A DNA stretch of 40,787 bases from a virus. The notes below the pieces were generated by a model. That model made no database searches and was not told where the DNA came from. It worked only from the letters and a program-made list of their open reading frames with translations. A program made the position numbers and the translations under genes. Where the stretch lies: positions 1 through 40,787 of IMG/VR virus record IMGVR_UViG_3300033145_000342. The stretch is one strand, 5' to 3'. This document shows positions 5,832-40,744 of the stretch, piece after piece. Numbering within the stretch: the stretch's first letter is position 1; every line of letters begins with the position of its first letter.

Positions 5832-6060
5832 TCCCCCTTGCCTTGAGCATTGCGTCGACCAACTCGTATGCCTCCACCGCAATGTCCTCTTTCCACGGCA
5901 GACCATGACAGGGATGATATCCGCCGCCGTGCCGTGCATGAGCCAACATCCCCGCCAACGCGCAACCGGCGAAGAAGTCGCGGAGTTGTCGCTGTTCTTT
6001 GCCAAGTCCCTTCTTGTACATCTCGTCTACCCGAGTGTAGTCATGTAAGTCACTCATCAT
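5821..6060 (-). CDS. Unknown early protein (79 aa)
   Basis: Starts MMSDLHDYTR after a GGGGGA ribosome site; the stop overlaps the next ATG. Mostly helical in appearance, with a central Gly/His-rich stretch (AHARHGGGYHPCH) and a C-terminal acidic helix. The pattern H...H...C...H could bind metal, but no family is recognised. It resembles the small accessory proteins common in phage early operons. Confidence 0.6.
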   Translation of the reverse strand: MMSDLHDYTRVDEMYKKGLGKEQRQLRDFFAGCALAGMLAHARHGGGYHPCHGLPWKEDIAVEAYELVDAMLKARGNDG

Positions 6061-6842
6061 TCCCCCCTTGCCACTAGGTCACTTACATCCTTCTCTCCGA
6101 CGATCTTGCACCGCTTCACCCGGAACTTACCGTCGGTTGCCGTTGGGATACACGCAATATCGTCTGCGGTAAACTCTGCTATCAGCACGCGGAAGCCCTC
6201 TCGCCACTCTCGCAAGCACCAGTCCAGCGTTGCAAGGTTAATACCAGCGCCGCATTGCTCGTTAATGCTCTCGTTACAAACGTCAACCGAATACTCACCG
6301 TTCATCTCATAGGTGATGCCGCCGTTGTATGGCCCCTCGTTGCACTCGTTTACTAGTTTGTAGGCGTGGAGCTTGCCGGGTTGGTCGAGCATTATCAATA
6401 GTGGGGTTATCCACTCGGGCTTGATGCCTTTGGCGGAATGGAGGTTGGCGTAACGGAGGTTGGCGGAACTGAGGTCGGCGTAACGGAGGTTGGCGTAACG
6501 GAGGTTGGCGGAATGGAGGTTGGCGTAACGGAGGTTGGCGTAACGGAGGTTGGCGGAATGGAGGTCGACGGAATGGAGGTTGGCGGAATGGAGGTTGGCG
6601 TAACGGAGGTTGGCGTAACGGAGGTTGGCGGAATGGAGGTTGGCGGAATGGAGGTCGACGGAATGGAGGTCGACGGAATGGAGGTCGGCGGAATGGAGGT
6701 CGGCGGAATGGAGGTCGACGGAATGGAGGTCGACGGAATGGAGGTCGGCGTATCGAAGGTTGGCACATTCGCCACCTTCTTCATTCCTCAACCACTTGCC
6801 ATGCGTGTCGATGATTTCCTTGAGCTTCTTACTGTCCATCAT
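6057..6842 (-). CDS. Pentapeptide-repeat protein with C-terminal globular domain
   Basis: 261 residues. After a short N-terminal helix (about residues 1-26) come 22 consecutive pentapeptides of the form (A/V)(N/D)L(R/H)(Y/S), with Leu always central, as in right-handed quadrilateral beta-helices. From about residue 137 a Cys-containing globular domain follows, similar to the domain often found after such repeats in phage proteins (DUF5758-like, recalled, not searched). Some pentapeptide proteins mimic DNA and bind gyrase (Qnr, MfpA), but these repeats lack direct evidence of that. The coding DNA is a nearly perfect 15-bp tandem repeat. ATG is preceded by GAGGGGGA. Confidence 0.85.
   Translation of the reverse strand: MMDSKKLKEIIDTHGKWLRNEEGGECANLRYADLHSVDLHSVDLHSADLHSADLHSVDLHSVDLHSANLHSANLRYANLRYANLHSANLHSVDLHSANLRYANLRYANLHSANLRYANLRYADLSSANLRYANLHSAKGIKPEWITPLLIMLDQPGKLHAYKLVNECNEGPYNGGITYEMNGEYSVDVCNESINEQCGAGINLATLDWCLREWREGFRVLIAEFTADDIACIPTATDGKFRVKRCKIVGEKDVSDLVARGE
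6431..6770 (+). repeat. 15-bp tandem repeat array encoding the pentapeptide helix
   Basis: About 22 units of 15 bp, drawn from very few variants (GAGGTTGGCGTAACG, GAGGTTGGCGGAATG, GAGGTCGACGGAATG, GAGGTCGGCGGAATG as read on the plus strand). Several units are identical and higher-order blocks recur, a sign of recent expansion or contraction by slippage or unequal recombination. All six frames stay open across it, which creates long spurious reading frames. Confidence 0.9.
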
Positions 6843-11591: not shown

Positions 11592-11620
11592 ATTATAAGT
11601 TACCAGTTGTGAGTTGTCAA
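11592..11620 (-). promoter_or_regulatory. Consensus sigma70 promoter of the leftward early operon
   Basis: On the minus strand TTGACA (11615-11620), a 17-bp spacer and TATAAT (11592-11597): a perfect match to the bacterial housekeeping consensus. The predicted start is near 11585, about 35 bp before the Cro-like ATG. The spacer contains CAACTGGTAAC, which resembles the TTACCA half-site of the repeat element at 32 and 37.5 kb. Confidence 0.88.
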
Positions 11621-12233: not shown

Positions 12234-12530
12234 ATGAACAAAGTGTTGCCGTGTGTGACGGTTGGGTTGCTGGTGGTGTTGGTTGCGGGGGTGTCGATTC
12301 TTACCGGGAGGCTGGTTTCGGTTGAGAATCAACTTGACAAGATGAAGGCTGAGCAATCCCTAACGTATGGCATGGTGGCAGATCAAAGCGCAAGCATTGA
12401 GACGATGAAGGGCAGTATCGAAATAATGAAGGGTAGGGTTTCGGGCATTTCTGCTACCCTGCTGGAAATGAATCCCGCTCTTGCCAGTGAAACATCTGCT
12501 CTCAAGGAGTTACTTGAGAGGAACAAATGA
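12234..12530 (+). CDS. Membrane-anchored coiled-coil protein
   Basis: 98 residues with a good AAAGGGGGA ribosome site. An N-terminal signal anchor (VLPCVTVGLLVVLVAGVSIL, residues 4-23) is followed by heptad-like sequence (VENQLDKMKAEQ...IETMKGSIEIMKGRV) and a short tail, so most of the protein is probably outside the membrane as a coiled coil. It contains an internal repeat around MKGSIEIMKGRVSGI. The stop overlaps the integrase ATG (ATGA). Possibly a superinfection-exclusion or lysogenic-conversion protein; unproven. Confidence 0.6.
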   Translation: MNKVLPCVTVGLLVVLVAGVSILTGRLVSVENQLDKMKAEQSLTYGMVADQSASIETMKGSIEIMKGRVSGISATLLEMNPALASETSALKELLERNK

Positions 12531-13981
12531 GCAACGTAGCCGCCTACATTCGAGTCTCCACCGAGGAACAGGCGCGAGAGGGCTTTTCGGTTGCCTCGCA
12601 GATAGAGAAGTGCAACCTCATGGCGCAGATGAAGGAACTCCCTACTCCCGAGCTTTACAATGACGCTGGATACTCCGGTGGTGATCAGTCACGCCCTGCC
12701 TTCGGTCGCCTGTTGGCCGATATCAAGGCGGGCAAGGTTAAACACGTTATCATCTGGAGGCTCGACCGGCTCACCCGGCGTATGAGTGAACTACTCGACG
12801 TGCTTCAACTGGTGCAGGATTACGAGGTCGAACTGCTGTCGGTGTCGGAGACGTTTGACACCGCATCCTCCGGTGGCCGCATGGCGACAAAGATGCTCGG
12901 CGTGGTCAACGAGTATTTTCTTGAACTCTTGAGTGAGAACATCAAGGCGGGCCTCCACAAGCGGGCAGCAGAAGGCAAGTGGGTGTCCTCCCCGCCTACG
13001 GGTGCCGACATAGTGGACGGGGTGCTGGTGTGGAATGAGCGGTCGCGGGCGGTGAAAAAGGCGTTTGAACTGGCAGCAGGAGATATGTACCTCAACGCCG
13101 TGGGGCGCAAGACGGGCATTAACCCCGCCACCTTGCGGGGGATTCTACGTAACCCCGCCTATATCGGGAAGATGTTGCTCAAGGGCGAAGTGCTGGATGC
13201 GGCGCATGAACCCCTGATAAGTAAGGAGTTGTTTGAGATGGTGCAGAAAGTCAAACCCGTTACTACGGGCAAGTGGAATAACAAGGCATCTCACGTCCTG
13301 TCTGGCACCGTGCGCTGTGGTCTTTGCCGGCGCGCCATGAGCGTCCAGCATGGCGGCAGGAATCGTGAGGTCGTGTCCTACGTTTGTCGTCACAGGGGCG
13401 GGCGGGCTTGTGAGGGCGTGGGTTCGAGGTCGGCGGCAAAGGTGGAGCGCGGGTTTCTCGCGGGGGCAGAACTGCTGAAAACCAACAAGCAGTTGCGGGA
13501 GGACATCAAGAACGCCTTGCACGACAAGAAGCCCCCCAACATCTCGAAGGAGATAGCCGAAGCCAACAAGGAACTCGGTCAGATTAAGCGACAGGTGAGT
13601 CTTGCCACGAAGTATATGCTGGAGAAGGAATCGACTGCCGAGGTCTGGAGCGCGAAGTTGGAGGAGCTCACCGAGTACCGCAAGATATTGGAGTCTGACC
13701 GTGACGCGCTTGTTGCCATGACGCATGAGAAGGAGCGGAAAGGGCTGGAACTTGGTGAGATGCTAGACCTGTTTGACCAGACTCCTTTCGCGGAGATATG
13801 GGAGGAAGGGGAGTTTGGGGAGCGTAGGGCGATTCTCACCGACTACGCCCAGGGGATATACCTGTACCCCGATTACATGGAGGTCAAGTTCTTCAACGTA
13901 CCGCCATTCAAGGTATGGTGGGACGAGATAGGCCGGACAAAGGTGTGCATATCAATGGAGCGGGAAAGGCGAGTCGCTTGA
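12527..13981 (+). CDS. Large serine recombinase (phage integrase)
   Basis: 484 residues. The N-terminal resolvase domain has the catalytic Ser in AAYIRVSTEEQ (S11, with R9) and the arginine motif IWRLDRLTRR (R78, R81, R84). A Recombinase domain follows (roughly 160-250), then a zinc ribbon with C264, C267, C287 and C295, and a coiled coil around 340-410, the standard layout of large serine integrases. It catalyses attP x attB integration and, with a directionality factor, excision. Only 11 bp separate its stop from the convergent gene, so an attP in the usual downstream place would have to overlap that gene. Confidence 0.95.
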   Translation: MSNVAAYIRVSTEEQAREGFSVASQIEKCNLMAQMKELPTPELYNDAGYSGGDQSRPAFGRLLADIKAGKVKHVIIWRLDRLTRRMSELLDVLQLVQDYEVELLSVSETFDTASSGGRMATKMLGVVNEYFLELLSENIKAGLHKRAAEGKWVSSPPTGADIVDGVLVWNERSRAVKKAFELAAGDMYLNAVGRKTGINPATLRGILRNPAYIGKMLLKGEVLDAAHEPLISKELFEMVQKVKPVTTGKWNNKASHVLSGTVRCGLCRRAMSVQHGGRNREVVSYVCRHRGGRACEGVGSRSAAKVERGFLAGAELLKTNKQLREDIKNALHDKKPPNISKEIAEANKELGQIKRQVSLATKYMLEKESTAEVWSAKLEELTEYRKILESDRDALVAMTHEKERKGLELGEMLDLFDQTPFAEIWEEGEFGERRAILTDYAQGIYLYPDYMEVKFFNVPPFKVWWDEIGRTKVCISMERERRVA

Positions 13982-32078: not shown

Positions 32079-32099
32079 AATTACCAATTACTGGTAATT
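32079..32099. promoter_or_regulatory. Inverted repeat at P2 start site, candidate operator
   Basis: AATTACCA and TGGTAATT arms (8 bp) around ATTAC. It overlaps the predicted start of P2. The 18-mer AATTACCAATTACTGGTA recurs exactly at 37542-37559 next to promoter P3. Confidence 0.55.
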
Positions 32100-32105
32100 T
32101 CTTCT

Positions 32106-32139
32106 AGGATACTCCCTTTGCTATTTTCCCTGCAATTCG
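32106..32139 (-). promoter_or_regulatory. Phage-specific promoter P2 (CGAATTGCAGGG family)
   Basis: Minus strand ACGAATTGCAGGGAAAA, with TTGCAG at 32130-32135, an 18-bp spacer and TATCCT at 32106-32111 as the -10. It precedes scaffold and capsid genes, where extra transcription is needed. The intergenic stretch 32045-32194 holds no gene. Confidence 0.65.
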
Positions 32140-37537: not shown

Positions 37538-37559
37538 TACCAATTACCAATTACTGGTA
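37538..37559. promoter_or_regulatory. Repeat/inverted repeat at P3 start site, candidate operator
   Basis: The 18-mer AATTACCAATTACTGGTA (37542-37559) is shared with the P2 region, and the 13-mer TACCAATTACCAA (37538-37550) with the non-coding region at 40352-40364. The core TACCA-ATTAC-TGGTA is an inverted repeat. It adjoins the -10 of P3, about one helical turn closer than in P2. Confidence 0.55.
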
Positions 37560-37592
37560 GTGTAGCAGGGTGGGGATTTCCCCTGCAATTCG
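37559..37592 (-). promoter_or_regulatory. Phage-specific promoter P3 (CGAATTGCAGGG family)
   Basis: Minus strand TCGAATTGCAGGGGAAATC, with TTGCAG at 37583-37588, an 18-bp spacer and TACACT at 37559-37564. It is the first promoter before the packaging genes and would start the long late operon. Confidence 0.7.
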
Positions 37593-37611: not shown

Positions 37612-37635
37612 AAAACCCCCCTGCGGAGGGGGGTT
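37612..37635 (-). terminator. Rho-independent terminator of integrase/RHH operon
   Basis: AACCCCCC - TCCGCA - GGGGGGTT stem-loop on the minus strand followed by TTTTCC. It lies 22 bp after the RHH stop and before P3, separating the lysogeny-type operon from the late operon. Confidence 0.8.
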
Positions 37636-37656: not shown

Positions 37657-37794
37657 TTACTTCTTCTTCATCTCTCGCTTCAATATCTCGACCACGATCC
37701 CGGTCATGCTCCTGTGCTCCTCGTATGCCCGCTTGCGTAGGTACTCATAGACCTCCATCGGGAAGGTTATTGTGACTCGCTTTATTAGCTTCAC
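37657..37794 (-). CDS. Ribbon-helix-helix (Arc/CopG-like) regulator, 45 aa
   Basis: GTG at 37792-37794 overlaps the integrase TGA (GTGA). The product (M)KLIKRVTITFPMEVYEYL then KRAYEEHRSMTGIVVEILKRE has the RHH order: a short basic strand, helix A, a turn and helix B, similar to Arc, MetJ-like and CopG regulators. It would dimerise and bind DNA through the strand. As last gene before a terminator and just upstream of P3, it is a candidate binder of the TACCAATTAC repeats, or an excisionase/directionality factor. Neither is proven. Confidence 0.72.
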   Translation of the reverse strand: MKLIKRVTITFPMEVYEYLRKRAYEEHRSMTGIVVEILKREMKKK

Positions 37795-38768
37795 TTGTTA
37801 TCCCCTTTCATCTTCGCCGCCAGGTGTCCTAACCTCGGCGTGTCATACCGTGTCGTACTGCTTATGCTACGGTGCCCGAGTAGCGCCTGTATCTCTCGCA
37901 CATCACAACCCCGCTCGTGTCGCAGACGGCAGGCGAACGTATGCCGTAGCTGGTGGGGGCTGATATCCCACTGCCTGTTAAGCCACTTGCGAAGCGCCTG
38001 GTCACGGATACCTCCCGCTATCATATCATCAGGTGCGGACCCGCTCACCCTACGGTGCAGGTCAATCTCCACCTGGAGTACCACTGTGATCGGCACTAAC
38101 TCATTCTCGCCACCTTTGCGGCGCCGCACCCATAGATACCCCGGCTCCACGTCCAGGTCACGCCAGCGGGCATCAAGCGCCTCACTGATACGCAGACCGG
38201 CCTCAAGCATGAGGTACACGGCTACCCGGCGATCTCCGTACTCCATGTGTGCGATCTCCTCCAGCACAGCGGGCGACACCTCCCGCTTTGTGCGGCGGTA
38301 CTTCCCGCCATTACCTCCACTCGCAGCCGGACGCTCCGCTTTCATTAGTACCGCCTCTCGTTTTTCGTCGGCTAATGCGAGGAACCTTACGGCTTGGTCG
38401 GCCTCGGCCTCCGATAGCATACCGTTGTCAAACGTGCGTTGTGCTTTGGCATTGGTCAACTCGGCCTTACGTTCCTCCACCATCCAGTAGATGACCGCCA
38501 CCGGATCCTCGACTTCACCGGACCCGCCACGCTCCTTGTCTATCTGCTCGGCAAGTTCGCACACGTCCCACGCGCCGGCCTCCAGGCTCCACCATCTACG
38601 ATACACCTTGCCGTCGGATCGGTAGACCGTGAGTATGTCGCGCACGTCCTCATACTCTCGCGCCGATATCTTGCGGTCCTCAACCTCAAAGTGATGCCAA
38701 CAGTAGTCAGCTATCCCGGCGTACCCTGGATGCTCGGGCTCGGCAAGAACTCCAGTTACCCATGTCAC
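37791..38768 (-). CDS. Tyrosine recombinase (phage integrase family)
   Basis: 325 residues from GTG 38766-38768, overlapping the TGA of a 21-codon gene (GTGA). The catalytic set is complete: R193 (EAGLRISEAL), K218 (RRRKGGENE), H272 and R275 (SPHQLRHTFACRL), H299 (LLGHRSISS) and nucleophile Y308 (TRYDT). The N-terminal region (1-160) is longer than a simple core-binding domain and acidic. A second integrase alongside the serine integrase at 12.5 kb is unusual: it may resolve phage dimers, invert DNA or integrate elsewhere. attP for it was not found. Confidence 0.92.
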   Translation of the reverse strand: MTWVTGVLAEPEHPGYAGIADYCWHHFEVEDRKISAREYEDVRDILTVYRSDGKVYRRWWSLEAGAWDVCELAEQIDKERGGSGEVEDPVAVIYWMVEERKAELTNAKAQRTFDNGMLSEAEADQAVRFLALADEKREAVLMKAERPAASGGNGGKYRRTKREVSPAVLEEIAHMEYGDRRVAVYLMLEAGLRISEALDARWRDLDVEPGYLWVRRRKGGENELVPITVVLQVEIDLHRRVSGSAPDDMIAGGIRDQALRKWLNRQWDISPHQLRHTFACRLRHERGCDVREIQALLGHRSISSTTRYDTPRLGHLAAKMKGDNK

Positions 38769-38830
38769 CGTGTCCACCACCACAGCACGGCTATGAGGAC
38801 CACCACGAGGATGGGTAGTAGGGTTTCCAT
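38765..38830 (-). CDS. 21-residue single-pass membrane microprotein (putative)
   Basis: ATG at 38828-38830 after GGAAGGGG; TGA overlaps the integrase GTG (GTGA). The product is a short hydrophobic segment (METLLPILVVVLIAVLW) with a basic end. The junction suggests a coupled leader for integrase translation, or a small toxin/holin-type peptide. Confidence 0.45.
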   Translation of the reverse strand: METLLPILVVVLIAVLWWWTR

Positions 38831-38831
38831 G

Positions 38832-39047
38832 TTAGACCCCTTCCACGTCAAAGATGCTCATGTGATCCCGGTGCTGGTAGTCGGTGATCGCCTGGCGCTT
38901 GCGGCTCAACTTCGCGCAACGCTTGCTACAATATTGCGGCGTGGGGTCAAACATCATACCCAAGTTCCCGGCACTTGCGTCCAGGGTGAATGCCTTGCCA
39001 CAACCAGCACACGTGCAGTCGATCCCGGCCTTGATGTCAGTTGTCAT
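38832..39047 (-). CDS. Small zinc-finger protein (71 aa)
   Basis: Start at ATG 39045-39047, with GGGGGTGAGGGC ahead; the longer frame upstream overlaps another gene and is unlikely. Contains CAGCGKAFTLDAS...YCSKRC, the FCS/zinc-ribbon pattern (CxxCG...CSxxC), and a basic segment. It ends just before the 21-codon gene. Function unknown; such fingers are often DNA- or protein-binding. Confidence 0.65.
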   Translation of the reverse strand: MTTDIKAGIDCTCAGCGKAFTLDASAGNLGMMFDPTPQYCSKRCAKLSRKRQAITDYQHRDHMSIFDVEGV

Positions 39048-40086: not shown

Positions 40087-40118
40087 GATTCACCTCCTCT
40101 CGTTGATAACCTGAACCG

Positions 40119-40147
40119 ACGTTAACATGATGATGTATTGATGTCAA
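40119..40147 (-). promoter_or_regulatory. Sigma70-like promoter of integrase operon
   Basis: Minus strand TTGACA (40142-40147), a 17-bp spacer and TAACGT (40119-40124), so the start would be near 40112, about 26 nt before the first ATG. Clean -35, moderate -10. It differs completely from the P1-P4 family, so this operon is probably expressed by host polymerase alone. Confidence 0.7.
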
Positions 40148-40186
40148 GACATAGTGAAGAAAAAAAAATAGAATGGTAGGGCTCAC

Positions 40187-40618
40187 GCCATACCAGGTGA
40201 AACCAGGTGATAGAGTAGAGATAAGGTTAACAGTTTGAACGGTAGGTTGAGAGTGTTAAGGAGTGTGTTAAGCTGTTGATAATGTGGTCAGAGTATTGAG
40301 TGTTCATAACTTCATACTTAATGCCAGTCGTGAGAGGATCGAGCTATCATGTACCAATTACCAACCTATTTGATACATGATGGCACTATATCTTGTGGTT
40401 TCCCAGGGTATATAGGTGCTGGAGAGAAAATCAAGGTGGGAGAGTCAATATTCTAGTCCAAATCCTGATATCAACTCCCAAAGTGGAGAGAGAATCACCT
40501 ATACTACATATATATATACACTCACCAATTCTCACATTTCACTTTTTCTTTTCCTCCACAAACCCTTTACCTGTAAGGCTCTACGTCCTTATGCTCGTTC
40601 TGCTTAACTCTAAACGAA
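40187..40618. other. Non-coding region with repeats and hairpins
   Basis: About 430 bp without a convincing gene. It holds direct repeats (ACCAGGTGA twice near 40194-40212; GTGTTAAG twice near 40253-40270), an 8-bp inverted repeat TATCATGTA/TACATGAT (40345-40381) enclosing a TACCAATTACCAA copy, and an AT-rich TATATATATA tract near 40507-40517. It may carry the tyrosine-integrase attachment site, regulatory operators or a packaging signal; none is proven. Confidence 0.6.
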
Positions 40619-40648
40619 TTGCAGGGGAAGCCATGTTTTCGGTATACT
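40615..40648 (+). promoter_or_regulatory. Phage-specific promoter P4, rightward (CGAATTGCAGGG family)
   Basis: Plus strand ACGAATTGCAGGGGAAGCC, with TTGCAG at 40619-40624, an 18-bp spacer and TATACT (40643-40648), the best -10 of the family. It is the only member facing right and reads into a short transcript rather than a gene. Confidence 0.7.
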
Positions 40649-40649
40649 A

Positions 40650-40664
40650 GGAGGGCTTCCCTCC
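40650..40664. repeat. Inverted repeat at the P4 start site
   Basis: GGAGGG-CTT-CCCTCC, 6-bp arms. It covers the predicted +1 of P4 (about 40655), a location similar to the inverted repeats at P2 and P3 but of unrelated sequence. Possible operator. Confidence 0.45.
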
Positions 40665-40744
40665 CTGGTCACCATTGCTATTTAAGTTTGGTGTTAGTCG
40701 TCTCTTACTCTTAGAGCAGAAAACCCCATGTTTCAGGGGTTTTT
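40655..40744 (+). ncRNA. Candidate phage small RNA (about 90 nt)
   Basis: A promoter with a strong -10 (P4) is followed after about 95 bp by a textbook terminator (40720-40744), with no credible coding sequence between. The predicted transcript has an internal short hairpin near 40700-40716 (CTCT/AGAG). It may be a regulatory RNA, an early-truncated read-through, or an antisense to leftward transcription crossing the end of the window. Existence as a stable RNA is not shown. Confidence 0.5.
40720..40744 (+). terminator. Rho-independent terminator, probably bidirectional
   Basis: AAAACCCC - ATGTTTCA - GGGGTTTT, then another T. The stem is 8 bp with A-runs on the left arm, so it has U-runs in both directions. 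Rightward it ends the P4 transcript. Leftward, if the molecule is circular or permuted, it would end the early operon that finishes at base 1. Confidence 0.85.

Follow-up and report, generated by a model that had tools for sequence, protein, structure and literature searches.

Genome record and layout

The window, meaning the whole stretch of DNA analysed here, is the complete IMG/VR record IMGVR_UViG_3300033145_000342 (40,787 bases), which IMG/VR classes as linear. It carries the genes of a tailed temperate phage, including a large terminase (phrog_675, E 8.9e-95 in PHROGs), a major head protein, a serine integrase, an XRE-type regulator, a replication initiation protein and an endolysin. Nearly all genes point leftward, the exception being a rightward lysogeny block at 11.7-14.0 kb. 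Both a tyrosine recombinase (37791-38783) and a serine integrase (12527-13981) are encoded, and the early region holds a pentapeptide-repeat protein (6057-6842, minus strand) with five-residue repeats of the NLHSA/DLHSV/NLRYA type. The regulatory features are as follows.

11592..11620, minus strand: early-operon promoter, perfect sigma-70 consensus TTGACA-N17-TATAAT, the only such promoter in the genome and a contrast to P1-P4
15699..15732, minus strand: P2, exact box (15732-15718) and TTCAAT, upstream of a RuvC-like gene
32106..32139, minus strand: P3, box with one mismatch (32139-32125) and TATCCT, upstream of a scaffold-position gene and the major capsid gene
37559..37592, minus strand: P1, exact box (37592-37578) and TACACT, upstream of a 99-aa ORF, a putative small terminase and the large terminase
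37614..37635, minus strand: second strong terminator, just upstream of P1, parting the preceding operon from the late operon
40615..40629, plus strand: P4 box CGAATTGCAGGGGAA, at about -40 to -26, identical to two leftward boxes
40619-40624, plus strand: TTGCAG, a -35-like hexamer within the P4 box
40643..40648, plus strand: P4 -10 hexamer TATACT, separated by 18 nt from TTGCAG and by 13 nt from the box
40655..40744, plus strand: predicted non-coding transcript of about 90 nt, its start inferred from the -10
40720..40744, plus strand: intrinsic terminator, perfect 8-bp stem AAAACCCC / GGGGTTTT with an 8-nt loop and U5 (stem 40720-40743, U-run end 40744)
40720..40743, minus strand: the same hairpin read leftward, with a UUUUCU tail; on a circular record it would end the early operon, 45-50 nt beyond its final stop codon

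Bases 1-3 of the record are the stop codon of a leftward gene, the last early gene. A start at a stop codon points to trimming of the record, or its rotation, to a gene boundary, which matters for judging if the ends are natural. The sequence across the joined ends (last base to base 1) had no match in the collections scanned, which did not include near records. Drawn as a circle, the genome would run from the early operon through a shared terminator and a gene-poor gap of 701 bp to a small operon ending at the terminator 37635-37614, followed by P1 and the late operon.

A late promoter family with fixed spacing

The 15-bp box CGAATTGCAGGGGAA occurs in three exact copies and one copy with a single mismatch; when up to three mismatches were allowed, five matches were found against 1.04 expected, and none of 100 shuffles reached five. 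Each of these four boxes is followed, after a constant 13 nt, by a -10-like hexamer, a phasing well outside chance. Matches to TATAAT summed over the four copies came to 17 of 24 at this offset and to 12 or fewer at every other offset from 0 to 49, and no random quadruple in 20,000 scored 17 at any of 31 offsets. The position of the box, -40 to -26, assumes a -10 at -12 to -7. A box shared by several late units at a fixed distance from the -10 is a coordinated phage late promoter family.

A sequence-only reading of this DNA had described P4 as the sole rightward member of such a family, carrying its best -10 and facing against the late region while using the same control element as the late genes. 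These points were borne out: P4 is the only copy on the plus strand, the other three being leftward at the head of the terminase, scaffold/capsid and RuvC-like genes, and its TATACT matches TATAAT at five of six positions, the best in the family. Given the exact box and this -10, P4 is not decayed in appearance. Another idea is that the P4 box is a binding site for replication, packaging or DNA looping beside which the -10 is incidental. That idea draws on the position of the box at the border of the genome's longest stretch without genes (701 bp, 41% G+C), but the P4 -10 is the best of four and lies at the exact common spacing, and we regard it as highly improbable.

The stretch next to P4 has features of its own. 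From 40087 to 40610 the DNA is AT-rich and gene-poor, with short direct repeats (ACCAGGTGA, GAGAGTGTTAAG), two copies of GTTGATAA (on the other strand TTATCAAC, DnaA-box-like) and one TATATATA run; it may serve as a replication origin or as a regulatory region. Midway in the gap, an inverted repeat ATCATGTA...TACATGAT (40346-40383) holds a minus-strand GTAATTGGTA motif. This motif resembles an 18-nt element, TACCAGTAATTGGTAATT, that is present in identical form at 37542-37559 and 32079-32096 on the minus strand, directly 3' of the P1 -10 and about 10 bp farther out after P3, one helical turn apart. The 18-nt element is found at neither P2 nor P4, and none is expected by chance. The P3 copy folds into a perfect 8-bp hairpin (z -3.1). 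An operator of the structural operons, or part of their mRNA leaders, is a possible role for the element.

A reader of the box that is encoded or altered by the phage is suggested by the overlap of the box with the -35 region, and also by the lack of TTGACA in the box whereas the early promoter is a perfect sigma-70 consensus. A sigma-54 reading of TTGCA was ruled out by eye, as the GG element at the right distance was absent when all copies were compared. No clear gene for Ogr, Mor or a sigma factor was seen in the phage, and an Ogr/Delta zinc-finger protein, as in P2-type late activation, was not found in a Pfam scan that covered part of the window ORFs. Weak helix-turn-helix similarity to sigma factors is seen in the putative small terminase (E 1.3e-4 in PHROGs; 0.0012 in NCBIfam, where the match falls far short of the curated cut-off). 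The operon that directly precedes P1 encodes a 71-aa putative zinc-binding protein with CxxC...CxxxC (38832-39047, minus strand), which by size and place is a candidate late regulator; a longer reading of this ORF had no Pfam match, and neither reading matched the Ogr family.

The P4 unit

The predicted P4 RNA consists of a C/U-rich single-stranded 5' end (GCUUCCCUCCCU), one weak hairpin and the terminator. The sequence-only reading had also placed a perfect terminator about 95 bp from P4 with no gene between, and this agrees with what we find: the U-run ends 96 nt beyond the final -10 base, and the unit contains no ORF that has a usable ribosome-binding site. A protein-coding unit was rejected, the only frame through (TTG at 40675) having no ribosome-binding site and crossing the terminator. 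There is no tRNA in the unit, and a search of the whole Rfam library at gathering score gave no family for it. The P4 unit thus has its own promoter and its own terminator within 50-300 nt of each other and no ORF, as phage sRNA genes do.

With regard to structure and targets, the 90-nt RNA including its terminator folds better than most shuffles (z -2.82; 2/200 shuffles), and the body without the terminator is slightly better than shuffled sequence but unremarkable (z -1.52). Pairing with the 55 phage ribosome-binding regions, the set to which the comparison was confined, was not stronger for the P4 RNA than for shuffled RNA, so that the proposed target prediction yielded no excess on the phage side. 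The suggestion of a small RNA therefore stood as regards promoter and terminator anatomy and gained nothing as regards stability or regulation, given the z-score of the body, the empty Rfam search and the absence of a pairing excess.

A strict terminator search returned only two places genome-wide, the P4 unit and 37635-37614, both at transcription-unit boundaries; the number of terminator-like hairpins, three strand-sites against 0-3 per shuffle, is not beyond chance. The P4 hairpin is symmetric and qualifies as a terminator on both strands. In a circular record it would stand 45-50 nt beyond the end of the last early gene and may therefore belong to the early operon; it may even exist for the early operon alone. 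Since the terminator also works leftward and may be that of the early operon, the sRNA reading is plausible but only that. The main rival follows from this: the terminator belongs to the early operon and P4 acts by transcribing against it. Here the act of transcription rather than the RNA would matter: P4 would oppose, late in infection, the polymerases that leave the early operon; jointly with the bidirectional terminator it would insulate the AT-rich gap of 520 bp and the operon beyond, and the RNA would be a by-product. The symmetry of the hairpin, its distance from the last early stop codon once the ends are joined and a weakly structured RNA body with no pairing excess all fit such a role. 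On the other hand, a bidirectional terminator would insulate by itself, with no need for an activator-dependent promoter 75 bp off, and the argument rests on a circularity that is assumed. We consider it rather unlikely, though it is to be taken seriously. The related suggestion that the unit acts on the end of the early operon likewise needs a circular record to agree with the sequence.

If the record is instead a fragment, P4 might lead a rightward late unit beyond 40787, with the terminator as a regulated attenuator in the manner of lambda pR'. The linear class in IMG/VR and the end of the window 43 nt past the terminator are compatible with this, and a 24-aa open frame that enters on the minus strand from the right end of the record keeps the fragment reading alive. 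However, the last 43 nt contain no rightward start codon with a ribosome-binding site, and the orientation of the other operons is that of a permuted circle from which no rightward late unit is missing; we judge an attenuator improbable. The same end of the record raises the possibility that a leftward gene comes in from beyond 40787 and that the P4 RNA is antisense to its 3' end, comparable to lambda OOP against cII. The frame in question (40785-40711, EEAYQEVVKYFKQAKTPETWGFLL) is open to the window end and stops inside the P4 unit. Its peptide has no Pfam match, though, the terminator hairpin would fall inside coding sequence, and the frame would come to only about 26 aa if the record is circular, which makes an antisense role distinctly improbable.

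Search for relatives

A relative near enough for covariation was not found in any collection searched. Megablast against phages gave no match, two scans of bacterial genomes revealed no relative, and the best protein identities were about 25% for the portal, at most 32-34% for the terminase and at most about 42% for the capsid. Scanning viral contigs for the box 15-mer returned 54 places, none with a TA...T hexamer at 13 nt (0/54); scanning for the box together with the -10 returned 51, and none of these loci has a protein in common with the window. Neither scan uncovered a common regulatory layout or any kin. The box with its -10 was also absent, at up to two mismatches, from the loci found by terminase match, and no locus fetched up to that check had two or more box copies. 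Blastn of the P4 unit against phages and plasmids returned only fragments at E 0.5-0.6; one of 26 bp, in Streptomyces phage Moab (E 0.6), falls within a coding region and was set aside as chance.

Discussion

The P4 unit is best read as a short non-coding transcription unit that is under late control and converges on the early operon, and the known kind to which it would belong is the phage sRNA. Judged by its sequence features, P4 is somewhat more apt than not to be a late phage promoter making a short (about 90 nt), non-coding, terminated RNA. That a discrete short transcript is made from P4 we think probable, and a trans-regulatory role for this RNA we put forward only tentatively.

In lambda, the late promoter pR' makes a short 6S RNA until Q antiterminates. 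The predicted P4 RNA is like 6S in being short, terminated and read from a late promoter; in lambda, though, late genes lie downstream of the 6S terminator, whereas downstream of the P4 terminator there are leftward early genes or nothing known. A short phage RNA encoded near a genome end is also familiar from phi29, where pRNA is part of the packaging motor. The P4 unit is alike in size class and position, but this phage has a standard large terminase. The sequence-only reading had offered a packaging-type RNA as one option; with the large terminase of phrog_675 in place of a phi29-type packaging ATPase, and no packaging-RNA model matched in Rfam, this candidate was rejected. We rate it unlikely, since pRNA is a feature of phi29-type motors and the terminase here is an ordinary one.

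There is experimental precedent for phage sRNAs of this size, including OOP (77 nt), PreS (about 88 nt) and sar (68/69 nt), and 6S has been named as an Hfq-dependent phage sRNA (PMC12197685). With its box intact, the family's best -10 and a neat terminator, P4 is built like OOP, sar, PreS and similar phage sRNA genes (PMC12197685), and it is reasonable to read it by this analogy. Lambda OOP (77 nt, promoter pO) resembles the P4 unit in that a short terminated RNA runs against a neighbouring operon (PMC12197685). However, OOP is antisense to cII, whereas the P4 RNA overlaps no established gene (opposite it there is only the open 24-aa frame, which has no family match) and its promoter is one of the late family. 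The trans-acting phage sRNAs, among them lambda PreS (about 88 nt), VpdS, sar and c4, are comparable in size and as phage-coded small non-coding transcripts (PMC12197685); unlike these, the P4 RNA is predicted only and has neither an assigned target nor evidence of an Hfq link. In mycobacteriophages L5, D29 and StarStuff, a non-coding RNA from the early promoter Pleft spans about 500 bp at the right end and is reported to be toxic when cloned (PMC5712189). These abundant RNAs (PMC5712189) share with the P4 unit a place near the genome end but differ from it in promoter and length, P4 having a late-type promoter and a predicted 90-nt product.

A working model for the sRNA reading is that a phage-coded or phage-modified factor reads the box, so that the four promoters would all switch on together, late in infection. 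The rightward P4 RNA would end at a terminator held in common, head to head, with the leftward early operon, provided the genome is circular. The most likely role of this RNA would be that of a late small RNA whose unpaired C/U-rich 5' end acts in trans on mRNA of the host or the phage, and a possible second effect is that convergent transcription blocks early read-through. A bolder and unlikely version is that a late activator of undescribed type reads the 15-bp box over the -35 region and drives both the structural operon and a dedicated 90-nt late sRNA, which through its C/U-rich end stops ribosomes from binding host or early phage mRNAs.

The firmer result is the box in four copies at a fixed spacing, which provides a direct handle on finding the late activator. 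If the RNA is made, it would be a phage sRNA tied to the late regulon, as opposed to early or lysogeny circuits, in a lineage that has no close sequenced relative.
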